A DNA stretch of 14,379 bases from Bacteroidales bacterium UBA4295 (GTDB lineage Bacteria; Bacteroidota; Bacteroidia; Bacteroidales; Paludibacteraceae): the NCBI GenBank assembly GCA_002395805.1, contig DGVB01000019.1, positions 1 through 14,379 on the forward strand, in the 5' to 3' direction. The notes under the pieces are model-generated. The model was not told the DNA's origin. It made no database searches and saw nothing but the letters and a program-made list of their open reading frames with translations. Shown in pieces: positions 1 through 12,414 of the stretch (positions are counted from its first letter, which is position 1; every line of letters begins with the position of its first letter). Position numbers and translations under genes: made by a program.

Positions 1-924
1 ATTTTGGAGAAGATAGCCTACCCCCAACCCCTCCCTAAAGGGAAGGGAGGACACCTTTACTCGTTTGACCAAGATATAGAGGCGTACGAAAATGTACAAT
101 GTACAATTCACAATGCACAATGCACAATTCACAATGCACAGTTTATAGATAATCCGAGGTGGACGTTTGTGCATAGCAATTTCCGGTATCTGAGGAACTG
201 GATGGATTATTACGGTGTGAAAGAGATTGACGGTCTGCTGGCAGATTTAGGGGTTAGTTTCCACCATTTCGACTGCCCGGAGAGAGGTTTCAGTTTCCGT
301 TTCAGCGCGCCGCTGGACATGCGCATGAACCAGACGGCCAAACGGACGGCGGCAGATATTGTCAACAGTTACAGCGAAGAAGAGTTAGCAAAAGTCTTCT
401 GGCTTTACGGCGAAATGAAGAACGGGAGGGGCATCGCAAGGAATATATGCAAGGCCCGTTCTCAGAAGCCGATTTTGAGGACAGAAGAGCTCATTTCAGC
501 CGTGCTTGACCGCACGCCTGAGAAGGGACAAGGGGACAAAGGACAAAGTACAAAGGACAATATAGAACTGGAGATACCGACGCAGTATAAGAAAGATCTG
601 GCGAGGTTGTTTCAGGCGCTTCGGATAGAGGTGAATGACGAGATGGGAGCGCTGCGGGAGATGTTAGTGGCTGCGAGAGACTTACTGAAACCCGGCGGGC
701 GGATAGTCATATTGACTTATCACTCGCTGGAAGATCGGTTAGTGAAAAATTTCCTTAGAAGCGGGAACTTAGAAGGAACGATAGAAAAAGACTTTTACGG
801 AAACGCGCTCACTCCGTTTGATGTTATCGAAAAGGGCCGGGTGGCCAGCGACGATGAAGTAGAACGGAACCCGCGTAGCCGGAGTGCGAAATTACGAGTA
901 GCAGAGCGTAAGGCGAAGCCCTAA
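1..924 (+). CDS. rsmH: 16S rRNA (cytosine1402-N4)-methyltransferase RsmH, 5' end outside window
   Basis: RsmH (MraW) methylates N4 of C1402 in the 16S rRNA decoding centre using S-adenosylmethionine. The frame is open from base 1 and ends at TAA 922-924, giving 307 visible residues. The family's glycine-rich SAM loop, which precedes the FDQD strand, is not present, so the true start lies upstream and the TTG at base 4 is not a start. Visible family landmarks are FDQD, the ADLGVS / ERGFSFRFSAPLDMRMNQ block, LFQALRIEVNDEM, TYHSLEDRLVKNF and the C-terminal NPRSRSAKLRVAERK. Three low-complexity insertions interrupt otherwise conserved sequence: YPQPLPKGKGG before FDQD, a doubled CTIHNAQ just after it, and EKGQGDKGQSTKDN in the middle. 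All keep the frame and coincide with DNA repeats. The last codons and the stop lie in an inverted-repeat element. The gene opens the dcw cluster, as is usual. Confidence 0.96.
   Translation: MLEKIAYPQPLPKGKGGHLYSFDQDIEAYENVQCTIHNAQCTIHNAQFIDNPRWTFVHSNFRYLRNWMDYYGVKEIDGLLADLGVSFHHFDCPERGFSFRFSAPLDMRMNQTAKRTAADIVNSYSEEELAKVFWLYGEMKNGRGIARNICKARSQKPILRTEELISAVLDRTPEKGQGDKGQSTKDNIELEIPTQYKKDLARLFQALRIEVNDEMGALREMLVAARDLLKPGGRIVILTYHSLEDRLVKNFLRSGNLEGTIEKDFYGNALTPFDVIEKGRVASDDEVERNPRSRSAKLRVAERKAKP
20..50 (+). repeat. G/C-rich palindromic repeat inside rsmH
   Basis: A C-rich arm followed by a G-rich arm, with core TCCCT-AA-AGGGA and an outer pairing CTCCCT/AGGGAG. It is translated in frame as YPQPLPKGKGG, at a point where RsmH proteins normally have a short loop before the FDQD strand. 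It resembles the palindrome in murG at 9144-9176, but the CCCTCCC heptamer is in a different codon phase there, which points to a DNA repeat and not a protein motif. Confidence 0.7.
91..144 (+). repeat. Heptamer tandem array (ACAATGC/ACAATTC) inside rsmH
   Basis: From base 96 the sequence divides into 7-nt units: ACAATGT, ACAATTC, ACAATGC, ACAATGC, ACAATTC, ACAATGC, then a decayed ACAGTTT. A 17-nt stretch recurs exactly 21 nt apart (103-119 and 124-140). Three heptamers equal seven codons, so the array is translated as CTIHNAQ twice. None of the seven circular triplets of either unit is a stop. It sits between FDQD and NPRWTFV, positions that are close together in ordinary RsmH proteins. Confidence 0.9.
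525..560 (+). repeat. Heptamer tandem array (AGGACAA family) inside rsmH
   Basis: Units read GGGACAA, GGGGACAA (8 nt), AGGACAA, AGTACAA, AGGACAA. It is translated as GQGDKGQSTKD in a charged loop before the conserved FQALRIEVNDEM helix. Bases 535-555 are identical to 4344-4364 inside murE, where the reading frame differs. Confidence 0.88.
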
Positions 925-1055
925 AGCCATTCGGATAGCGTTTATACTCTTCGGAGTAACTCGCCCCCTGCTCGACGAGTTTTGGCGTACCCATTCGCCA
1001 AAACACGCCTCCGAGAGAGTATAAACTGATCTTCCGCCAAAGGCGGAGGGCTTCG
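914..1055. repeat. Nested inverted-repeat element filling the rsmH-ftsL gap
   Basis: Pairs of inverted arms nest within each other. The outermost are CGAAGCCC 914-921 with GGGCTTCG 1048-1055. Next are 17 nt at 940-956 with 1009-1026, perfect except for one bulged G at 1015. The inner pair is TTTTGGCG 980-987 with CGCCAAAA 996-1003. Small hairpins lie at 971-979 (CTCGACGAG) and 1033-1047 (TCCGCC/GGCGGA). The outer left arm overlaps the last codons of rsmH, whose stop is at 922-924. It is not a simple intrinsic terminator because no T-run follows the structure. A MITE-like or REP-like element, or an RNA processing structure, fits better. The short minus-strand frames here (within 824-1151) mirror the palindrome and I do not call them genes. 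I see no promoter match in the gap. Confidence 0.72.
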
Positions 1056-1107
1056 AATGAAAACAAATAGCAACTCGTAAATTGAGCAGAGAGAAAAAGA
1101 AAAAAGT

Positions 1108-1434
1108 ATGGCAGATGCGCATGACATACAATCATGGCTGAACGGGGACAAACTCCGAAGCCGGAAAATCAGAGAGCAATATCCTCTGATGGGGTTGATA
1201 GTCGCGCTTCTTTTTCTCTACATTCTGACCGGCTATCAGTCCAGCAAACAACAGCACCGGCTGACGGATACAAAAAAAGAGATGCTGGACGCCAAATTCC
1301 GGTACATGACTATCAGTGCGCAACTGACCAACGCCACGCGTCAATCGCAGATCATTGAAGCCCTGCGCGAGCATGGCAGCACACTGCAAGAAAACACCAA
1401 ACCACCAACCAAAATCCTTAACTATTATGAGTGA
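1108..1434 (+). CDS. FtsL-like cell division protein of the Bacteroidota type
   Basis: This is a 108-residue bitopic membrane protein. It has a basic cytoplasmic N-terminus (KLRSRKIREQ), one membrane segment at about residues 26-42 (PLMGLIVALLFLYILTGY), and a polar, helix-prone periplasmic part to about residue 90 suited to a coiled coil. Size, topology and position between rsmH and the division transpeptidase match the FtsL-like proteins of Bacteroidota. In the divisome, FtsL with FtsQ and FtsB recruits and activates FtsW-FtsI; that role is inferred here from family and context, since sequence conservation is low. The ATG at 1108 follows an A/G-rich run (GAGAGAAAAAGAAAAAAG) and has no stronger competitor. 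The stop overlaps the ftsI start by 8 nt, which suggests coupled translation. Confidence 0.83.
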   Translation: MADAHDIQSWLNGDKLRSRKIREQYPLMGLIVALLFLYILTGYQSSKQQHRLTDTKKEMLDAKFRYMTISAQLTNATRQSQIIEALREHGSTLQENTKPPTKILNYYE

Positions 1435-3220
1435 CGAACAACGTAACACTGTATGGCGATTCGCCATCATTTTCACCATCATTGCCCTTGGTTTTATCGC
1501 CGTACTGGGCAAAATCATTTACGTACAGACCGTAGAGCGGGCCGAATGGCTCAAAGTGGCAGAGAAACAAGTGCCGACGCTGAAGCCTATAACAGCCACG
1601 CGGGGAAATATCCTGGATTGCAACGGCCGACTATTGGCAAGCAGCATGCCGCAGTATTATATTTATATGGATACGCGCGTGCCCGCGCTGCACGAGAAAA
1701 ACGGGAAATTATTTCACGCGCACATAGACACGCTGGCGCTGGATTTAGCCACTATCATCGGCGATCACAGTCAGGCGGAATACAAAGCGCGTATCACGAA
1801 TGCCTACCGTCGCGGCGAGAAACGCCTGAAGGTATGCGACCACCGGATCAACTACCTGCAGCGCCAGGAGCTGGAGCAGAACGCATTGATCAAGAAAGGC
1901 AAATACCGCAGCGGCATTTTCTTTGAGGACCAGCACCGGCGAATCAAGCCATACGGTGTGCTGGCGAGCCGCACTATCGGCAGCATCTACGGTGAAGGCG
2001 GAAGCGGCAATTCGGGTCTGGAGAAGCGTTTCGACAAAGAGTTGCGCGGTATAGACGGCATGAGCAGCATCCAGAAAATCGGCGGCCGGTATGAGTCGGT
2101 GACGGTAGAAGAAGCCCAAGACGGCATGGATGTAGTGACCACCATTGACGCCAATTTACAGGATATTGTAGAGAACGCTCTGCTGGTCAAGACGGCCGAG
2201 CGCAAAGCCAAATGGGGCTGCTGCATTCTGATGGAGACACAGACCGGCTATATTCGCGCTATTGCAAATCTGGACCGGTCGGAAGACGGACAATATTACG
2301 AGGCTCAGAACCATGCCGTGCAGCGCGTGGAGCCGGGTTCGACTTTTAAGACTATAGCCCTGACAGCCGCTCTGGACGACGGGAAAATCAAGATAACCGA
2401 CACCGTGAGCGTGAGTCGTCATCCATGGCAGTATTTTACCGTCAAACATACAGACGCCCACCCGATGGACACCTTGCTTACCGTCCGTTCTGCACTGGCC
2501 GTTTCCAGTAATATAGCACTGGCAAAACTGATCACGCGGAGTTACGAAGGTTCGGCAAAGAAATTCGTTCGCCGCATCGAGAAGATGGGTCTGATGGACA
2601 GCGTTTATTGCGAGATCCCGGGAGCAGACAAAGTGCGAATCGATGTACCCAAAGACACCGTGACGCTCAGTAAAATGAGTTACGGTTACTCGGTGGAGTT
2701 GAGTCCGATGCAGATCCTGATGTTCTACAACGCTATCGCCAACAACGGCCGTATGATGAGACCGATGCTGGTGACCGCAATCCAGCAGAACGGCGAGATA
2801 GAGAAGAGTTTCAAGCCGGAGGCGGTCAAGTCGTCCATCTGCGGCAAAAAAGCCATCGAAGATATCAAAGGGGCGCTGCATGACGTCGTATGGGACGATC
2901 ATCTGGGAACAGCAGCAGCCAGGCAATGGAGTCGCAAAGCGCAGAGTAACTTAGTCTCTATCGCCGGCAAGACCGGTACAGCACAGTTGATCATTCCCGG
3001 CCACGGCTACTCGGGCAGACACCACCGAATGACGTTTGTGGGTTATTTCCCGGAAGAGAACCCGCGGTACACCTGCATCTGTATGATCGAGGATCCGCAA
3101 TACCCGTATGACGCAGGTATGGATTGCGGTTCGACCGTACGTGTGATAGCCGAGAAGACGATGGCATACACGGGATGCTATGTTTATAAAGAAGGAGAAA
3201 AGAAATTAGAAAAGCGATGA
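1427..3220 (+). CDS. ftsI: Division-specific penicillin-binding protein (FtsI/PBP3-type transpeptidase)
   Basis: This is a septal D,D-transpeptidase that crosslinks peptidoglycan and partners FtsW. I start it at ATG 1427 (MSDEQRNTVWRF), overlapping the ftsL stop by 8 nt. The longer frame from 1355 adds 24 residues that merely re-read the ftsL end. The protein is 597 aa. It has one membrane anchor at about residues 12-33, then RGNILDCNGRLLASS (from residue 59), the usual opening of the non-catalytic pedestal domain. The transpeptidase domain shows all three active-site motifs: S305-T-F-K308 (nucleophile Ser305), S360-S-N362 and K515-T-G-T-A519. Only about 80 residues follow KTG, and I see no PASTA domain, whereas some dcw-encoded PBPs of this phylum carry one, as far as I recall. 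The end overlaps murE by 4 nt (ATGA). Confidence 0.96.
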   Translation: MSDEQRNTVWRFAIIFTIIALGFIAVLGKIIYVQTVERAEWLKVAEKQVPTLKPITATRGNILDCNGRLLASSMPQYYIYMDTRVPALHEKNGKLFHAHIDTLALDLATIIGDHSQAEYKARITNAYRRGEKRLKVCDHRINYLQRQELEQNALIKKGKYRSGIFFEDQHRRIKPYGVLASRTIGSIYGEGGSGNSGLEKRFDKELRGIDGMSSIQKIGGRYESVTVEEAQDGMDVVTTIDANLQDIVENALLVKTAERKAKWGCCILMETQTGYIRAIANLDRSEDGQYYEAQNHAVQRVEPGSTFKTIALTAALDDGKIKITDTVSVSRHPWQYFTVKHTDAHPMDTLLTVRSALAVSSNIALAKLITRSYEGSAKKFVRRIEKMGLMDSVYCEIPGADKVRIDVPKDTVTLSKMSYGYSVELSPMQILMFYNAIANNGRMMRPMLVTAIQQNGEIEKSFKPEAVKSSICGKKAIEDIKGALHDVVWDDHLGTAAARQWSRKAQSNLVSIAGKTGTAQLIIPGHGYSGRHHRMTFVGYFPEENPRYTCICMIEDPQYPYDAGMDCGSTVRVIAEKTMAYTGCYVYKEGEKKLEKR

Positions 3221-4713
3221 TACTCAAAGAATTACTATCGGTGATCCAGCCGATTGAGGTGATCGGCTCGACGGACAAAGAGATCAACGGTCTGCATTTC
3301 GACAGCCGCAAGATCAACAAAGGCGATGTCTTTGTTGCGCAGGTAGGCACAGCAGTAGATGGACACACATTCATTGATGGTTGTGTCGCCAAAGGCGCGG
3401 CGGCAGTAGTGCTTTCGGACAGGAAGTTTCTGCCGGAGGAAGTCGAAAGTCAAAAGTCGAAAGTCGAAAGCCCCTGCTATATTCTAGTGGAGAATACGGA
3501 CAAGGCGCTGGGATTGATGGCGAGCAAATGGTTCGGCGAGCCGAGTAAGGAGTTGACGCTGGTGGGCGTTACAGGCACAAACGGCAAAACGACCATCGCC
3601 ACCTTATTATATAAACTCGTGCGCGCGTTAGGGCACAAAGCGGGACTTCTCTCCACGGTTGTCAATTATATCGAGGACGAGGCAGTCCCTGCCACTCACA
3701 CCACACCGGACGCCATTGAACTGAACGGGCTGCTGAGACGGATGGCGGATGCAGGATGCGAGTATGCATTCATGGAGGTTTCATCGCATGCCATCGCTCA
3801 GGAACGCATCGCCGGTCTGGATTTCGACGGGGCGTTGTTCACGAACCTCACGCGTGATCATATCGACTACCATAAGACTTTTGACAACTACCGCGATACG
3901 AAAAAACGGTTGTTTGACGGGCTGAAGAAAAGCGCCTTTGCGGTGACCAACAAAGACGACAAGAACGGACTCGTTATGACTCAGAACTGCAAGGCGGAAG
4001 TGAAGACCTACTCCACCCGCTCGCTGGCGGACTACAAGGCTCAGATTTTAGAAGAGGGATTCGAAGGTATGATGCTTAATATCAACGGGAAAGAGGTGTT
4101 TGTACCGCTGGTAGGACGGTTCAATGTCAGCAATTTGCTCTGCATCTACGGCGCAGCGCTGTGTTTAGGATTTGAGGAGTTGGAAGTGTTGCGAGTGCTG
4201 AGCACCCTGAAACCTGTGAACGGCCGCTTTGAGACCATCCGGAGCCCGAAAGGCTGGACCGCCATCGTGGACTATGCCCACACGCCGGACGCCGTAGAGA
4301 ACGTGATTCAGACGATTCGAGAAATCTTAGGAAGTGACAAAGTGACAAAGGACAAAGTACAAAGAAAACTAATCACCGTTGTGGGTTGCGGAGGCAACCG
4401 AGACAAAGGCAAACGGCCGATGATGGCACAGATAGCCAAGAAAGGCAGCGAGCAGTTGATTCTGACCTCGGACAACCCTCGTGACGAAGAGCCGGCAGAC
4501 ATTCTGAACGATATGAAAGCGGGTCTGACGGAGGAAGAACTGCGTAGCACATTAGTGATCGAAGACCGCGAGGCAGCGATACAGACCGCTTGCACCCTTG
4601 CGCAGAGCGGAGACGTCATCCTGATAGCCGGAAAGGGTCATGAGGACTACCAGATTATCAAAGGCGTCAAGCATCATTTTGACGACCATGAGGTGGTAAA
4701 ACGATATTTGTAA
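3217..4713 (+). CDS. murE: UDP-MurNAc-L-Ala-D-Glu:meso-diaminopimelate ligase MurE
   Basis: This cytoplasmic ligase adds the third stem-peptide residue with ATP. The 498-aa protein has the three Mur ligase domains: an N-terminal UDP-MurNAc-binding domain, a central ATPase with P-loop TGTNGKTT (residues 119-126), and a C-terminal domain with VVGCGGNRDKGKRPMMA and D419-N-P-R422. The DNPR motif is the known marker for meso-DAP and argues against L-Lys, so this organism should have DAP-type peptidoglycan. Two extra low-complexity loops coincide with tandem DNA arrays: VESQKSKVES at about residues 76-85 in the N-terminal domain, and SDKVTKDKVQRK at about 372-384 before the GGNRDKGKR block. Neither touches a recognised active-site motif. 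The start at ATG 3217 overlaps the ftsI stop. The TAA stop (4711-4713) is formed by the junction of the first two units of the heptamer array that follows. Confidence 0.97.
   Translation: MILKELLSVIQPIEVIGSTDKEINGLHFDSRKINKGDVFVAQVGTAVDGHTFIDGCVAKGAAAVVLSDRKFLPEEVESQKSKVESPCYILVENTDKALGLMASKWFGEPSKELTLVGVTGTNGKTTIATLLYKLVRALGHKAGLLSTVVNYIEDEAVPATHTTPDAIELNGLLRRMADAGCEYAFMEVSSHAIAQERIAGLDFDGALFTNLTRDHIDYHKTFDNYRDTKKRLFDGLKKSAFAVTNKDDKNGLVMTQNCKAEVKTYSTRSLADYKAQILEEGFEGMMLNINGKEVFVPLVGRFNVSNLLCIYGAALCLGFEELEVLRVLSTLKPVNGRFETIRSPKGWTAIVDYAHTPDAVENVIQTIREILGSDKVTKDKVQRKLITVVGCGGNRDKGKRPMMAQIAKKGSEQLILTSDNPRDEEPADILNDMKAGLTEEELRSTLVIEDREAAIQTACTLAQSGDVILIAGKGHEDYQIIKGVKHHFDDHEVVKRYL
3442..3470 (+). 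repeat. Heptamer tandem array (GTCGAAA) inside murE
   Basis: Four 7-nt units, GTCGAAA, GTCAAAA, GTCGAAA, GTCGAAA, plus the first base of a fifth. It is translated as VESQKSKVES between LPEE and YILVENTDKALG in the N-terminal domain. None of the triplets of the unit is a stop, so it can be read in any phase. Confidence 0.9.
4333..4364 (+). repeat. Heptamer/octamer tandem array (AGTGACAA/AGGACAA) inside murE
   Basis: Units AGTGACAA, AGTGACAA, AGGACAA, AGTACAA, then AG. It is translated as SDKVTKDKVQR just before ITVVGCGGNRDKGKR. Bases 4344-4364 match rsmH 535-555 exactly but are read in another frame, giving TKDKVQ here against DKGQSTK in rsmH. Confidence 0.9.
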
Positions 4714-4761
4714 TTTGTAATTTGTAATTTGTAATTTGTAATTTGTAAATTGTAAGTTGTG
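4706..4761 (+). repeat. ATTTGTA heptamer array across the murE stop and mraY leader
   Basis: Six perfect ATTTGTA units run from 4706 to 4747, followed by AATTGTA and AGTTGTG. The murE stop codon TAA at 4711-4713 is formed inside the array, and the array then fills almost all of the murE-mraY gap, ending 7 nt before the mraY ATG. In the + orientation every third unit gives an in-frame TAA, so this array could not lie inside a gene read in this direction. Each junction reads TAATTTG, one base short of the Bacteroidota -7 box TAnnTTTG. Confidence 0.95.
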
Positions 4762-4768
4762 ATTTAGT

Positions 4769-6041: not shown

Positions 6042-7322
6042 ATGAAACGAATCGTCGTATTAGGAGCCGGCGAGAGCGGCTCGGGCGCAGCCATCCTCGC
6101 CAAAGAGAAAGGTTTTGATGTTTTCGTGAGCGATTGCGGCACGATCAGTGACCCGTATCGCGCTCTGCTGGATCAGAATGGTGTCCAATGGGAAGACGGC
6201 AAGCATAGCGAGGAACTGATTCTCAACGCTGACGAGGTAGTCAAATCTCCGGGTATTCCATTGACCGCTCCGCTCATTAAGAAACTACAAGCGCAAGGCA
6301 CGCCCATCATCTCCGAAATCGAGTTCGCCGCGCGGTACACGAAAGCCAAGATGATCTGCATCACCGGATCTAACGGCAAAACGACCACTACTTCGTTGAT
6401 CTTCTATATCCTGAAGCAAGCCGGTCTTAACGTCGGGCTGGCGGGCAATATCGGCAATTCGCTGGCACTGCAGGTGGCGCATGAGGACCATGACTACTAT
6501 GTGATCGAACTCTCGTCCTTCCAACTCGACAATATGTACGATTTCAAAGCGGACATCGCCATTTTGCTGAATATAACTCCGGATCACCTTGACCGGTACG
6601 ACTATAAGTTCCAGAACTATATCGACGCCAAGTTCCGTATCACCCGCAACCAGACAAAAGAGGACTCGTTCATCTATTGGGCAGAGGATCCGGTGATAGA
6701 CCGCGAGATGAAACGTCTGCAGTTGGGAGCAACCCTCTATCCGTACGGTTTCACCTGTCCGAATCCGCTGCCGGTCGGCGAAGAAGAACTGGCGCTCAAG
6801 GGGCGGCATAATGTGCTTAACTCCATGGCAGCGACCATTGCGGCGAACGTAGTGGGTATTAAGAAAGAAATCATTCGCGAGTCTCTCAAGACCTTCCAGG
6901 GAGTGGAGCACCGCCTCCAGTATGTGGCTACCGTCCGCGGCGTACGTTATATCAATGACTCGAAAGCGACTAATGTCAACTCCTGCTGGTACGCGCTCGA
7001 GTCCATGACTACACCGACCGTACTGATCTTAGGCGGGAAGGACAAAGGCAATGACTATAGCGAGATTGACGAATTGGTAAAGCAGAAATGCCATACCCTC
7101 ATTTTCATGGGGCTCCATAATGAGAAACTGCGGGAGCATTTTGGCGGTTTCGGACTGAATATCATAGACACGGACAACCTGCACGATGCCGTGCAGGCGG
7201 CCTACAACGCGGCGCATGAAGGAGACACGGTGCTGCTCTCGCCCTGCTGCGCATCGTTCGACCTTTTCAAATCCTACGAGGACCGCGGCGAGCAATTTAT
7301 GAAAGCCGTCAGAGAACTCTAG
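6042..7322 (+). CDS. murD: UDP-MurNAc-L-alanine:D-glutamate ligase MurD
   Basis: MurD adds D-Glu to UDP-MurNAc-L-Ala in the cytoplasm, the step before MurE. The 426-aa protein has a Rossmann-like N-terminal domain (VVLGAGESGSGAAILAKEKGFDVFVSD), KSPGIP, and the ATPase P-loop TGSNGKTTTT from residue 108. The central domain shows ELSSFQLD and LNITPDHLDRY, and HNVLNSMAA carries the residues expected to contact ATP. The C-terminal domain has VRYINDSKATN, LGGKDKGNDY and LLSPCCASFDLFKSYEDRGEQF, the usual MurD ending. There are no repeat insertions, unlike in MurE. The start ATG 6042 is 1 nt after the mraY stop. A short CTAG-containing array lies between its stop and ftsW. Confidence 0.97.
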   Translation: MKRIVVLGAGESGSGAAILAKEKGFDVFVSDCGTISDPYRALLDQNGVQWEDGKHSEELILNADEVVKSPGIPLTAPLIKKLQAQGTPIISEIEFAARYTKAKMICITGSNGKTTTTSLIFYILKQAGLNVGLAGNIGNSLALQVAHEDHDYYVIELSSFQLDNMYDFKADIAILLNITPDHLDRYDYKFQNYIDAKFRITRNQTKEDSFIYWAEDPVIDREMKRLQLGATLYPYGFTCPNPLPVGEEELALKGRHNVLNSMAATIAANVVGIKKEIIRESLKTFQGVEHRLQYVATVRGVRYINDSKATNVNSCWYALESMTTPTVLILGGKDKGNDYSEIDELVKQKCHTLIFMGLHNEKLREHFGGFGLNIIDTDNLHDAVQAAYNAAHEGDTVLLSPCCASFDLFKSYEDRGEQFMKAVREL

Positions 7323-7324
7323 AA

Positions 7325-7356
7325 CCCTAGTACCCTAGGATCCTAGTATCCTAGTT
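7325..7356. repeat. Octamer tandem array (CCCTAGTA-like) between murD and ftsW
   Basis: Four 8-nt units: CCCTAGTA, CCCTAGGA, TCCTAGTA, TCCTAGTT. The preceding CTCTAGAA (7317-7324), which contains the murD TAG stop, looks like a decayed fifth unit. The CTAG core is palindromic, so the array carries a stop on either strand and could not be tolerated inside a gene. The remaining gap to ftsW (7357-7388) is A/C-rich and shows no clear promoter. Confidence 0.8.
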
Positions 7357-8636: not shown

Positions 8637-9716
8637 ATGCGCTATTTGATTTCCGGCGGCGGGACCGGAGGACATATTTTCCCCGCAGTCAGTATTGCCA
8701 ATGCATTGAAGGAGTTGGATCCTCATGCTGAGATCTTGTTTGTAGGTGCACTCGGACGAATGGAGATGGAGCGTGTGCCGCAAGCGGGATATAAGATTGT
8801 CGGACTCCCCGTCCGCGGCTTTAACCGCGCACAGCCCTGGAAGAACGTCTCCGTCCTCATTGATCTCGCCAAATCGATTCGCCAAGTGCAGAAGATCATC
8901 CGCGATTTTAAGCCCAACGTAGGTGTCGGTGTAGGCGGGTACGCTTCGGGTGCTGCTATGTGGGCCGCAGCCAACATGGGCATCCCTATTCTTCTCCAGG
9001 AACAAAACGGTTTTGCCGGAGTGACCAATAAGATTCTCAAGGACAAAGCCGCCAAGATCTGTGTAGCGTACGAAGGGATGGAGCGCTTCTTCCCTGCCGA
9101 TAAAATCATTCTCACCGGCAACCCCGTAAGGCAAAACCTTAAACCCCACCCTTACCCTCCCCACAAGGGAGGGGATAAATATCTCCTGATCATCGGCGGG
9201 TCACTCGGTGCACGCACGATCAACGAAGCTATTGCAGCCGGGCTACCTGCCCTGCAAGCTGCCGGCATCCATGCCGTCTGGCAAACCGGCAAGATATATT
9301 ACGAGAAATGCAAAGCCGCATGGGAAGCAGCCGGTAAACCGGCGAATATTGAGGTACATGATTTTCTCTCCGACATGCCGGATCAGTATGCGAATGCCGA
9401 CCTAGTCATCTCCCGCGCCGGAGCAAGCTCTATTTCCGAACTCTGTCTCCTCGGCAAACCCGCTATCCTTGTACCCTCACCCAATGTAGCCGAAGACCAC
9501 CAGACACACAACGCCATGGCGTTAGTCAACAAAGATGCTGCGGTACTTGTTCGGGACGCAGAGGCTGCGGACAAACTGATTTCCACTGCACTAAAACTGA
9601 TTCAGGATGACGAACGGCTCAAAACGCTCCATACCAATATTCTGGCGCTCGCGCAAGCCGACTCCGCACGGCGCATCGCAGAAGAGGTTATAGCTCTCGC
9701 TAAAACGCACTTGTAG
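8637..9716 (+). CDS. murG: Lipid II synthase MurG (GlcNAc transferase)
   Basis: MurG transfers GlcNAc from UDP-GlcNAc to lipid I at the inner face of the cytoplasmic membrane, making lipid II. The 359-aa GT28-type protein has the first glycine loop GGGTGGHIFPA (residues 7-17), VGVGGYASGAAMWAA, and the acceptor-site loop EQNGFAGVTNK. The second domain has GGSLGAR (187-193), SRAGASSISE (Glu268, matching the UDP-GlcNAc-contacting Glu of E. coli MurG) and the PSPNVAEDHQTHNAMAL segment. Residues 170-180 (PHPYPPHKGGD), just after GNPVRQNLK and near the join between the two domains, are encoded by a G/C-rich palindromic repeat. The start is ATG 8637, 9 nt after ftsW. Its stop is 19 nt before the sel1 gene. 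Confidence 0.97.
   Translation: MRYLISGGGTGGHIFPAVSIANALKELDPHAEILFVGALGRMEMERVPQAGYKIVGLPVRGFNRAQPWKNVSVLIDLAKSIRQVQKIIRDFKPNVGVGVGGYASGAAMWAAANMGIPILLQEQNGFAGVTNKILKDKAAKICVAYEGMERFFPADKIILTGNPVRQNLKPHPYPPHKGGDKYLLIIGGSLGARTINEAIAAGLPALQAAGIHAVWQTGKIYYEKCKAAWEAAGKPANIEVHDFLSDMPDQYANADLVISRAGASSISELCLLGKPAILVPSPNVAEDHQTHNAMALVNKDAAVLVRDAEAADKLISTALKLIQDDERLKTLHTNILALAQADSARRIAEEVIALAKTHL
9144..9176 (+). repeat. G/C-rich palindromic repeat inside murG
   Basis: A C-rich run leads into a 7-bp inverted repeat, CCCTCCC 9155-9161 with GGGAGGG 9167-9173, separated by CACAA. It is translated as PHPYPPHKGGD between the conserved GNPVRQ and IIGGSLGAR segments. It is akin to the element at 20-50 in rsmH but read in a different codon phase. 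Confidence 0.78.
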
Positions 9717-9735: not shown

Positions 9736-12414
9736 ATGAAGCACTATCTCCTTACTTTCCTATGTATCCTTTTCGCTCTCTCGCTTGCGGCGGAGAATGA
9801 TTATTATGCCAATATCGATAAGGCCCGGAATGGCAACAAAAACGCCCAATACAATATCGGCTATTTCTATTTCTACGGTAAAGGAGGTGTCAGTCAAAAC
9901 TACGACATAGCTCTCCCGTGGCTACGCAAGGCCGCCGATCAAGGCGTAGAGCAGGCACAAGCCTTATTGGGGCTCGCTTATGACCATGGTTTTGGTGTGC
10001 CGCAGGACTATGCTACGGCCGCTTACTGGTATCGCAAAGCCGCAGACAAAGGAGATGTATTGGCGCTCAACAATCTGGGATTGCTCTACGACGAAGGAAA
10101 TGGTGTTGAAAAGAATCTCTACAAAGCCGCTGAATTGTACAAAAAAGCAGCCGATAAAGGAGACGATATCGCGCAATATAATATCGCTAACTGTTACGCA
10201 AAAGGGCAAGGCGTTGCCGAAAATGACGACCTCGCCTTCAGTTACTACAAAAAATCAGCTGAACAAGGATATGCCAATGCGCAGTACGAACTCGGCCGAT
10301 GCTATGATTTAGGAAACGGGACGTACAAAAGCGACTATCAAGCTCTCATATGGTATCGCAAAGCCGCCGAACAGAACCATGGAAAAGCACAATACCAGGT
10401 AGCCAATGCCTATCTCTATGGCAGCGGAGTGACGAAAGATGTCGGCCAAGCCATCATTTGGTATCGAAAAGCCATTCCTCTGTTGGAAGCGGAAGCGGAA
10501 GCGGAGGAAGAGAAGGATACTTGGAAAATGAGCTCTTTATATGTTCGGCTGGCGAAAATGGACCTCTACTCTGCCGGATATGAACTGGGAATGGATTACT
10601 ATAACGGTACCGGAGGACAGACGCGCAATTATTCCACCGCCTTCGCTTGGTTCAAAGATGCTGCCCTGCATGATAATGAGAACGCCATGTATATGACCGG
10701 CAAATGCTATGCGCTCGGCCATGGTGTCGGACGAGACAAAACAAAAGCCGTTCAGTGGTATAAGCAAGCCGCGAAAGAAAGAAATAAGGAGGCCATGTAC
10801 GAACTCGGATTGTGTTACAAGAACGGAGACGGCGTCGCGAAAGACGAAGAAGAATCCATAGACTGGCTGGTCAAGGCTGCACGAGACGGGCATGTGGATG
10901 CTATGTATGAAGTGGGCTTATCTTGTGAGAAAAGCGAGATATACGACAACGCGGCGGAATGGTATCTTGAGATGTTAGAGAAAGGAGATGCTGCGCAGAA
11001 AGCCAAAGCCGAAAAGCGCTTGCAGGCGCTTTCGGATGACTACGACAACTCTTTCTTCGGGAATAAAGGAAGCCGGAAAGCCTTTCAATATATCCACCAG
11101 GGATCGCTCGCTCTCAAGGCGAACAACAAGGATGAGAAAATCTATACCAAAGCTATAGCGAAGGATGACTATACCTATCGAGCCACCGGTGAATGGAACG
11201 CCCGGTCGCTGCCCGTCGGATCCTATTATGTAAAACGCGTCCGAGACAATTGGGAGGACAAATATGACACCATTCATATCATCCACCCTGCTACAAACAT
11301 CACCCTACCGCCCATGCTCCCTAAGACCGGCACGCTGGTCGTCAAATCCAGGCCTAAGAATGCGAACGTCTATATAGACGGCGTACAGCGGGGTAACACT
11401 CCCTGGAGAGGAGAACTACAAATCGGAGAACATAATGTTTGGGTTAGCAAACAAGGAAGAATCAGTTCGGCCACGGAACATATTAATATTCCTTACAAAA
11501 ACACTGCCTATACGGATTTCAAACTCAAAAGCGAGTGGTATTACGGTTCGGATTACCATCCCGATCATTACCTAGAGCCCATGTATGGCATCGAGTTCGC
11601 AGAATATAACCGTCACCACTATGCGGGCGTACGATATGGATGGATCCCGAAACGCTTCGGTTTGGATGTCACGGCTCTTTATGGTATCACCAATCAGGAA
11701 CTATCTGCGACTATCGGCCCTACATTCCGGCTCACTTCGTTCTCTTGCCCGCTGAGCCTGCAACTTGCCCTTGGAGGAGGTGCTATGTACCGCTTCACAG
11801 ATAATTATGTTACCTGGGTGGCAGACGCGGCGCTGCGATTCGGTTTCAAAGAAGGATACAAGGATCATAAGTTCGGGTGGTGGTCTTTCTCACTCGGCAC
11901 AAGGTACTACGACGGCAGGTTTATCCCTACGGCTTCGGTCAGCCTGATGCCGGTTCGTGCGCTCGCACTCGCTGCCATGGCGCTTGAGGACGATTTCCCG
12001 CGTATCTATACGGAAATACAAGCCGGACATGAATTCACATCAAGCCAATGGATGATGGGTGCGCAGATTGATTATATCCCCGGTCACCTGGGTATCGGTA
12101 CCTCGTTCATGATCGGTTTCGAAGGAGGATGGGATGTCATGGCAGGACCTGTATTCCGACTCACTCCGGATTATATTCCCTTTGATTTTCAGCTCTACCA
12201 GGGATTCGGATACGGCCATTTCGACCATAGCGGCTTCATGGCAGAGACAAGCCTGAAGTTCGCCTTCGGGCACGACCTCCCTTACTGGGGTTTATGGAGT
12301 TTCAATGTCGGCTGCCAGTACGGTTCCGGCAATGTAGCGGTTACTTTCGGCGTCAGCCTGCCTATTATCTCTATTCTCGGTACCGCCGGTATGGCTACCC
12401 TCTTCTATCTATGA
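9736..12414 (+). CDS. Secreted Sel1-repeat protein with PEGA domain and predicted C-terminal beta-barrel
   Basis: An 892-aa exported protein of unknown function. Residues 1-19 form a Sec signal peptide (KHYLLTFLCILFALSLAA). Residues of about 30-440 hold ten Sel1-type repeats of about 36 aa with the pattern AQY-LG-CY--G-GV--D---A--WYRKAA; the tenth is degenerate. An acidic EAEAEAEEE stretch interrupts between repeats 6 and 7. After a linker, residues 531-598 (TGTLVVKSRPKNANVYIDGVQRGNTPWRG) are a PEGA domain, a beta-rich module of surface and cell-envelope proteins. The last ~290 residues alternate polar and aromatic or hydrophobic positions with many Gly-Tyr/Phe strands and end in LFYL. This suggests a small outer-membrane barrel, inferred by eye. 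Sel1 repeats mediate protein contacts. Location after murG, where murC-ftsQAZ usually lie, hints at an envelope role but does not prove one. Its end overlaps the phosphatase start. Confidence 0.88.
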   Translation: MKHYLLTFLCILFALSLAAENDYYANIDKARNGNKNAQYNIGYFYFYGKGGVSQNYDIALPWLRKAADQGVEQAQALLGLAYDHGFGVPQDYATAAYWYRKAADKGDVLALNNLGLLYDEGNGVEKNLYKAAELYKKAADKGDDIAQYNIANCYAKGQGVAENDDLAFSYYKKSAEQGYANAQYELGRCYDLGNGTYKSDYQALIWYRKAAEQNHGKAQYQVANAYLYGSGVTKDVGQAIIWYRKAIPLLEAEAEAEEEKDTWKMSSLYVRLAKMDLYSAGYELGMDYYNGTGGQTRNYSTAFAWFKDAALHDNENAMYMTGKCYALGHGVGRDKTKAVQWYKQAAKERNKEAMYELGLCYKNGDGVAKDEEESIDWLVKAARDGHVDAMYEVGLSCEKSEIYDNAAEWYLEMLEKGDAAQKAKAEKRLQALSDDYDNSFFGNKGSRKAFQYIHQGSLALKANNKDEKIYTKAIAKDDYTYRATGEWNARSLPVGSYYVKRVRDNWEDKYDTIHIIHPATNITLPPMLPKTGTLVVKSRPKNANVYIDGVQRGNTPWRGELQIGEHNVWVSKQGRISSATEHINIPYKNTAYTDFKLKSEWYYGSDYHPDHYLEPMYGIEFAEYNRHHYAGVRYGWIPKRFGLDVTALYGITNQELSATIGPTFRLTSFSCPLSLQLALGGGAMYRFTDNYVTWVADAALRFGFKEGYKDHKFGWWSFSLGTRYYDGRFIPTASVSLMPVRALALAAMALEDDFPRIYTEIQAGHEFTSSQWMMGAQIDYIPGHLGIGTSFMIGFEGGWDVMAGPVFRLTPDYIPFDFQLYQGFGYGHFDHSGFMAETSLKFAFGHDLPYWGLWSFNVGCQYGSGNVAVTFGVSLPIISILGTAGMATLFYL

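Follow-up and report, generated by a model that had tools for sequence, protein, structure and literature searches.

Tandem heptamer arrays in a cell-wall gene cluster of a Paludibacteraceae genome: probable block-copied elements of about 30 nucleotides

The stretch of DNA analysed here (14,379 nucleotides, hereafter the window) is contig C36 of a metagenome-assembled genome (MAG) of Bacteroidales bacterium UBA4295, which amounts to 1.50 Mb in 40 contigs with a completeness rating of 61%. It carries rsmH, an open reading frame (ORF) called ftsL-like from its position and having no NCBIfam match, a penicillin-binding protein gene, murE, mraY, murD, ftsW, and murG. The rsmH gene is cut by the contig end and was identified by TIGR00006 (227 bits); MurE was identified by NF001126 (607.6 bits), and the nearest named relatives of this protein come from Bacteroidales and Paludibacteraceae MAGs, many of ruminant origin. 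Tandem arrays with units of seven nucleotides (nt), one array of octamers, and small palindromic inserts lie within and between these genes (Table 1). An earlier note on this DNA had taken the heptamer arrays for an actively spreading or slippage-driven repeat system filtered by selection. Tandem Repeats Finder (TRF) confirms all the arrays listed there.

Table 1. Repeat arrays and palindromic inserts of the window, with their coordinates.
Feature	Location	Coordinates	Strand	Basis
ACAATGY/ACAATTC heptamer array, ~7 units	rsmH, N-terminal variable loop	91..140	+	TRF
AGGGACAA/AGGACAA/AGTACAA array	rsmH, second variable loop	525..560	+	TRF 534-560, readable from ~525
Four-unit element A(GTCGAAA GTCAAAA GTCGAAA GTCGAAA)G	murE, loop 1	3441..3470	+	Exact four-unit match; TRF 3440-3470
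Four-unit array AGTGACAA AGTGACAA AGGACAA AGTACAA(AG)	murE, loop 2	4333..4364	+	TRF 4332-4364
ATTTGTA array; holds murE stop TAA 4711-4713	murE-mraY gap	4706..4765	+	TRF; ORF ends
Octamer array CCTAGTAY/CCTAGGAT; holds murD stop TAG 7320-7322	3' of murD	7313..7356	+	TRF 7313-7354/7326-7355; ORF ends
GC-rich imperfect palindrome insert (CCCCTCCCTAAAGGGAAGGGAGG, judged by eye), PLPKGKGG in frame	rsmH	21..50	+	Sequence
GC-rich imperfect palindrome insert (CACCCTTACCCTCCCCACAAGGGAGGGG, judged by eye), HPYPPHKGGD in frame	murG	9144..9174	+	Sequence; murG TIGR01133, 299 bits

The array in loop 1 of MurE is the sole exact four-unit match to GTCRAAA in its own genome, and its order of G and A variants, GAGG, is the commonest order in a related genome rich in this unit, G021 (15 of 41 arrays). 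In an AlphaFold2 model of the MurE of the window (mean predicted local distance difference test score, pLDDT, 85.4), the array segments form low-confidence loops, residues 375-380 of loop 2 falling below 50 and block 71-80 averaging 68.

Beyond the window, heptamer arrays are dispersed over the genome, as in the short tandemly repeated repetitive (STRR) sequences of cyanobacteria. A sample made up of the window and 35 further stretches (664,779 bases, 44% of the MAG) held 68 period-7 arrays in its 665 kb at a census threshold of about three copies or more; among the other periods from 3 to 20, periods 3, 6, 8, 9, and 11 had 2, 1, 1, 1, and 4 arrays, respectively. In three order-4 Markov simulations, period 7 was absent and period 3 yielded 3, 3, and 1 arrays, so that the scan for periods 7 and 8 proposed by the earlier note sets period 7 far above simulated sequence. 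Because this threshold is stricter than that of TRF, the figure of 68 is a lower count; indeed, only three of the five heptamer arrays of the window are retained (at 91, 3440, and 4706), those at 534-560 and 4332-4364 lying below the threshold. At a looser threshold, period-7 arrays number 12.6 per 100 kb in the own sample, 11.8 in 25 dcw stretches of close Paludibacteraceae, 4.7 in 32 farther ones, and 3.2 in 26 other loci, mostly from Prevotella, period 7 being the most frequent class in all four sets. The farther Paludibacteraceae also hold 15 period-11 arrays; arrays of this period are common there (seen in L065-L104, for example at L069 16841, L089 340, and L096 5951).

That period 7 so strictly prevails in several sets of Bacteroidales favors replication slippage, in which the polymerase would slip by 7 nt at chance seeds and arrays would grow and shrink unit by unit under pruning by selection (Mrazek 2007, as cited in the available text of PMC4679880 and PMC4692102). 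The units themselves are less easily explained in this way, since they fall into few families that are specific to lineages. The 68 arrays of the own sample group into 31 classes with 127 same-class pairs, where 2.85 are expected from intergenic heptamers (maximum 15 in 2000 draws); a second null based on a pool of seeds gave a mean of 152, above the observed value, but its seeds are drawn from the same families and include N runs, and it cannot discriminate between the readings. Across seven related genomes, three units of GTCGAAA (at most one mismatch, overlapping positions counted) gave 103, 67, 58, 48, 10, 2, and 0 matches, the reversed control giving 2 in one genome and 0 in the other six, which bears out the claim of active spread. 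Of 101 genomes of the genus, the own one included, 44 contain a run of four exact GTCRAAA units, with 1-52 matches each, and the reversed control has none (0/101); in G050, of the same genus, the unit is absent. Three units of AATTACG, a unit that we take to resemble cyanobacterial STRR units, were found in 9 of 395 genomes drawn from the phylum, with no reversed-control match among the matches listed.

The arrays also occur in viral contigs. In IMG/VR, where stretches of one contig were left unmerged, duplicates were retained, and the hosts may include Bacteroidales, the four-unit GTCRAAA pattern is present in 30 stretches. This documents spread and gives no proof that phages are the vehicle. 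Runs of 3, 4, 5, 6, and 8 units number 28, 38, 4, 3, and 1 for ATTCGTA and 10, 22, 5, 1, and 0 for AGTTGAA (three-unit pattern), while ACAATGC shows two runs of three units, four of four, and one of 12. Among the other arrays of these contigs, 60 of 85 have period 7.

The copy number is most informative for GTCRAAA, for which the test is fullest, the other units being covered less fully. Exact runs of 2, 3, and 4 units, obtained by arithmetic from whole-genome match counts and listings with two-, three-, and four-unit patterns, number 57, 23, and 51 in G021 (plus one of seven units), 33, 8, and 27 in G554 (none longer), and 24, 6, and 14 in G490 (plus one of five). Pooled, the three genomes have 114 runs of two units, 37 of three, 92 of four, and 2 of five or more; exactly four units are thus present in 92 of the 94 arrays having at least four exact ones. 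Reversed controls of the 15-base pattern gave 3, 1, 0, and 0 matches. As a mutated unit ends an exact run, some decayed fours are expected within the two- and three-unit classes. Slippage predicts a copy number that decays from the seed with no mode, and the mode at four, the dip at three, and the near-total stop above four are at odds with it. Other periods show the same number: when array lengths are pooled (orthologous copies being counted more than once), period 7 peaks at 30-33 nt, period 8 at 35, and period 11 at 44, that is, at four units each. In the own sample, copy number peaks at 3.5 copies (26 arrays) and 4.5 (30) and drops to 7 arrays at 5.

The ends of the arrays are set as well. 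Among 42 of the 52 G021 arrays whose flanks were examined, 40 are plain fours, one has seven units, and one continues with a variant unit (L242). An A precedes the array in 41 of the 42, although it is not part of the search pattern; C at +2 is present in 29 and T at -2 in 21, and the remainder of the flanks shares nothing seen. The G at +1 belongs to the G021 pattern, and in a separate search that omitted it, 47 of 47 runs of at least three units were followed by G. The same sequence thus stands at unrelated sites with exact ends, as is the case for mobile elements. As a side observation, in G461 (L204, L217 twice, L224, and partly L221) the GTCGAAA array lies at one end of a longer repeat sharing GCAGGACAAGTTACTATAGACGACACATTTT; G559, which has the coordinates of G461, was treated as one assembly with it.

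Within the four units, the variants keep their register across unrelated loci, which is not what unit-wise slippage should produce. Of 41 G021 arrays, 4, 25, 14, and 9 have the A variant at positions 1, 2, 3, and 4, respectively (P 5e-6 by chi-square, 5e-5 by shuffling within arrays); the counts for G554 are 4, 16, 6, and 2 of 27 (P 5e-5). Because these positions are so uneven, the copies look like descendants of four-unit blocks whose register was kept. The families of the own genome show the same register pattern by eye, and TATTCATTATTCATTAATCATTAATCATTA has identical copies at two unrelated places. This identity of whole blocks between unrelated loci again speaks against slippage as the main source.

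Close relatives bear on the same question, since slippage should make copy number vary readily among them. G455 and G456 share 93-98% identity over most flanks, and 12 of 14 G455 arrays (periods 7, 8, and 11) have an ortholog in G456. Seven of these 12 agree in length and nearly in sequence, 11 nt separate the two forms of one period-11 array, and four are replaced by unrelated sequence (at MurE loop 2, in murD, in the murE-mraY gap, and at one further site). In the other direction, orthologs were found for 10 of 11 arrays: seven of equal length, one AATTACG array differing by 21 nt, one period-11 array differing by 11 nt, and one replaced. The close-strain comparison suggested by the earlier note therefore shows both stability, with length kept in 7/12, and turnover, with the whole array swapped in 4/12. 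Orthologs in G459 were limited to 3/14 and 1/11. Between L059 and L061, whole-array differences occur at two gene gaps, together with a 21-nt insert at the apparent murD site. Some variation does suit slippage: the differences of 21 and 11 nt between G455 and G456, certain long arrays, and, in loop 1 of MurE from L066/L067, L071/L074, and L062, a ladder of 1, 2, and 3 DNGQxTM-like heptapeptides in steps of about 21 nt (three heptamers). On the strength of the copy-number distribution, the register, and the sibling comparison, we nevertheless discard slippage as the main source of the arrays; as an explanation of the whole it is unlikely, and the slippage-driven alternative of the earlier note is not supported.

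The position of the arrays relative to genes goes with their stop-codon content. ORF-based calls place 19 of the 68 own-sample arrays inside genes, 20 at gene edges, and 29 between genes; the truncated rsmH is not called, so that these counts treat its array at 91-140 as intergenic, and with it the intragenic share becomes about 29% (20/68). Fifteen of the 19 called intragenic arrays have no stop triplet on the sense strand. The remaining four do have such triplets, which the way of calling ORFs necessarily puts out of frame, and a hand trace of two (L035 2092 and L167 9566, the others being in L172 and L175) places a TTTAAAG variant exactly where the pure unit would give an in-frame TGA. At 3' gene edges, the gene's own stop is inside the array in 13 of 13 cases. 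The sorting by stop content that the earlier note had deduced from the window thus extends to the sample, and filtering by selection is upheld. Its rule that units inside genes are free of stops in all circular triplets does not hold: AGTGACAA of murE (4333-4348) includes TGA, out of frame in both copies (AGT GAC AAA GTG ACA AAG). Read by hand, a hypothetical third copy of AGTGACAA would give AAG TGA in frame, and the actual third unit is AGGACAA. Likewise, the ATTTGTA array, described as lying outside coding sequence, is mostly in the murE-mraY gap yet begins before the murE stop; the octamer array, described in the same way, encloses the murD stop, so that both genes owe their stop codon to an array. 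This sorting is strict, but it is an expected effect of purifying selection, as was argued earlier for TAACTGA arrays in the accessible part of PMC4679880.

Arrays outside genes also gather near gene ends. Overlap with a stop codon is seen in 16 of the 49 non-intragenic ones, where 300 null placements gave a mean of 4.3 and at most 11. A distance of no more than 15 nt separates 29 of them from a stop codon (null mean 6.1, maximum 12) and 16 from a start codon (null mean 6.4, maximum 15). This proximity, the modes at four of ATTCGTA (38/74) and AGTTGAA (22/38) among IMG/VR runs of at least three units, and a translational role proposed for TAACTGA arrays (PMC4679880, in the text available) would suit functional sites, where four heptamers bind a protein or an RNA and selection keeps the number at four, as in the G-quadruplex proposal for G-rich heptamers. 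However, the units differ among close relatives at one and the same site, and 17 of the 41 four-unit arrays of G021 stand in a sense frame that is open for 150 nt on both sides (random control 1037/2000). A single binding protein would hardly fit so many units, and four G-tracts are lacking: ATTCGTA, TATTCAT, AGTTGAA, and GTCGAAA have no G-tract and cannot form the proposed quadruplexes, yet often occur in four copies. Because four-unit modes are found in such units, we argue against G-quadruplexes as the general cause of this number, and we consider conserved functional sites a rather unlikely explanation of the arrays.

The tolerant sites are filled in different ways from one relative to the next. 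Among 25 close relatives, differing heptamers, GC-rich palindromes, other sequence, or a short form are found in both MurE loops and, where the stretch includes rsmH, in the RsmH loops. At the rsmH site 91-140, both length and unit vary among relatives; at the second rsmH loop, relatives have other sequence or nothing; in MurE loop 2, some have AGTCGAA or GGACAAT and others palindromic inserts, and the empty form KKEGA also occurs. The murE-mraY gap holds ATTTGTA, AATTAAR, TTTGACA, ATTTAGG, ATTTGAR, or octamers, whereas L059 and L069 have almost nothing there. The octamer array of murD is conserved in L052. GC-rich palindromic inserts of the class seen in rsmH and murG recur in the same loops in relatives and fill the MurE loops of L054, L057, L064, and L068. 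Site reuse also appears when 40 regions of G021 are searched against the own sample and L177: seven distinct loci have both flanks aligned, and at five of them an own-genome array lies between the flanks, of another unit in four (AGTACAA type, AATAATG, AGTTGAA, and ACAATTC/ACAATGC) and of the same family in one. At the other two, no own-genome array is seen in the portion examined. With far less than 1% of the sample occupied by own arrays, chance hardly explains this reuse, though tolerated sites are few.

Part of this diversity may have passed between species. The MurE gene of L055 (10001-11470) looks recombinant, its loop 1 DNA being that of L056 and its loop 2 DNA that of L053, with a local dip of identity to its sibling, and homologous exchange could well carry alleles between species. 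Homologous exchange between related carrier species might even be supposed to account for everything, with no movement inside a genome. Exchange at homologous positions cannot, however, make copies at dozens of unrelated sites, and the same four-unit block is found at dozens of such sites in one genome; exchange as the only process is therefore very unlikely. L055 also differs from L056 and L053 by the presence or absence, as blocks, of hairpin-like elements about 58-64 nt long (AAGACCGC..GCTRAAAG), and GTC units at times adjoin this hairpin-like sequence (L176, L222).

Known kinds of machinery were sought in ten genomes. Y1_Tnp matches are present in six (above the cut-off in four) and are out of step with the arrays; PF01797 is without a match in the array-bearing G455 and G461 and has one in G458, which is without the GTCGAAA unit (the completeness of these three genomes is not given). 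We reject the Y1 transposase as mover, its presence not following the arrays; moreover, the heptamers are direct repeats, unlike the palindromic units that accompany a Y1 transposase in REP/RAYT systems. Synthesis on a template may also be envisaged, in which a telomerase-like reverse transcriptase such as DRT10 would make short tracts that are then inserted at breaks. DRT10 does make tandem-repeat DNA (PMC12632851, in the part available), and a set copy number, a kept register, and lineage-specific units would all suit an RNA template. Conversely, several unit families per genome would require several templates, and PF00078 (RVT_1) has no match in any of the ten genomes at E 0.001, two of them rated 100% complete, although a very divergent enzyme could escape this search. 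On this last result we dismiss a reverse transcriptase or telomerase-like origin, which appears extremely improbable.

Taken together, many of the arrays are probably dispersed elements of about 30 nt that are copied as blocks and filtered by selection. The element would normally consist of four tandem heptamers with set ends, such as A(GTCRAAA)4G, and new sites would gain whole blocks from existing copies, not single units by slippage. A few heptamers are amplified in each lineage, differing among lineages. Insertions that break genes would be purged. What persists would be copies free of in-frame stops, tolerated by the loops of RsmH, MurE, and other essential proteins, and, at the ends of genes, copies with stops, which often come to serve as the stop codon of the gene. 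Tolerant sites are re-occupied, whether by small palindromic elements or by heptamers of another family, and exchange between species would account for part of this. Going further, four-copy heptamer blocks of about 30 bp could perhaps form a widespread class of very small mobile DNA, with a constant copy number, register, and ends but a unit that can vary freely from one lineage to another; they would be moved by a mechanism not yet known and would colonize the same tolerated loops and gene ends repeatedly as in-frame peptide inserts or new stops. We put forward this wider proposal only tentatively, as it appears to us somewhat less probable than its converse.

Several observations weigh against these readings. 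Four is not a universal copy number: in G461, 5 of 22 GTC runs of at least three units exceed four, one reaching 13; GTCGAAA in the four-unit scan of IMG/VR has 11 runs of four, 11 of five, and 9 longer; the own sample has its peak at 3.5 copies; and the arrays at 91-140 and 4706-4765 of the window are longer than four units. The genomes used for the run lengths (G021, G554, and G490) were picked for their richness in the unit, with a pattern that allows G/A variants only, and the large class of 114 two-unit runs is mostly unexplained, the two short runs inspected being one degenerate four and one true two. The four-unit search in ten genomes gave three reversed-control matches in G456. Orthologs were limited to 2/4 and 2/8 arrays between G457 and G458, and the site-reuse set comprises seven loci. 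Empty forms are present (L059 vs. L061), with several filled/empty pairs resembling replacements with altered flanks; no clean target-site duplication was seen in the sibling comparison, and no moving machinery was identified.

Finally, at 9736-12414 of the window, a large ORF has its best NCBIfam matches with the MerG, ExoR, MotX, and AlgK models, all below cut-offs; its product presumably resembles a repeat protein of the Sel1/TPR type.

The arrays also show a way in which extra peptide loops arise in essential proteins, and new stop codons in genes, within closely related species. Prior accounts of bacterial heptamer arrays invoke polymerase slippage or, for G-rich units, quadruplexes; neither accounts for a sharp four-unit mode, set ends, and a preserved register in units that lack G-tracts, a combination that points to block-wise insertion. 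All three features, namely the rule of copy number, the ends, and the reuse of sites, are testable on existing genomes. In the literature searched, outside which most subscription papers lie, we found no description of four-copy blocks whose ends are set and whose units lack G-tracts, of register preservation, or of site reuse. Heptamer arrays in Bacteroidota, their limitation by stop codons, the preference of G-rich units for four copies, and four-heptamer elements in Geobacter are already known.

Among known systems, cyanobacterial STRR sequences are tandem arrays of heptamers, as here, and the likeness drawn by the earlier note is reasonable. The small dispersed repeats of Nostoc are very small elements thought to be mobile, but they are single sequences of 21-27 nt and not four-copy tandem blocks. 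Rickettsia palindromic elements are small repeats lying in frame in housekeeping genes, as here; they are larger palindromes, whereas the arrays are direct repeats, and the GC-rich palindromes of rsmH and murG come closer to them than the arrays do.

The nearest precedent is provided by the TAACTGA direct repeats of Beggiatoaceae, cyanobacteria, and five Bacteroidetes including Paludibacter propionicigenes (PMC4679880), which already contradict the earlier view that no such arrays had been described in Bacteroidota. In the available text of that work, stop codons are held to be probably a major control on array position. The resemblance covers the heptamer arrays, their patchy distribution, the limit set by stop codons, the Paludibacter host, and relatives with shorter gaps and no obvious repeats; arrays there have two to six copies in one Beggiatoaceae genome and reach 43 in some Bacteroidetes and cyanobacteria. 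The GGGNATC heptamers of Xanthomonas and Nostoc (PMC4692102, as far as its accessible text goes) are likewise dispersed, mostly in four units, often near ORF ends, and variable between close relatives, but their number is ascribed to G-quadruplexes, whereas the units described here have no G-tracts. In Geobacter metallireducens, GGACCGG (49 copies) also forms four tandem heptamers in genic and intergenic positions, yet as a single GC-rich unit taken as regulatory (PMC2700814, in the portion available). The work on TAACTGA repeats, for its part, follows one mostly intergenic unit (PMC4679880); the arrays of the present genomes combine many units per genome, an intragenic share approaching one-third, set ends, and a mode at four units.

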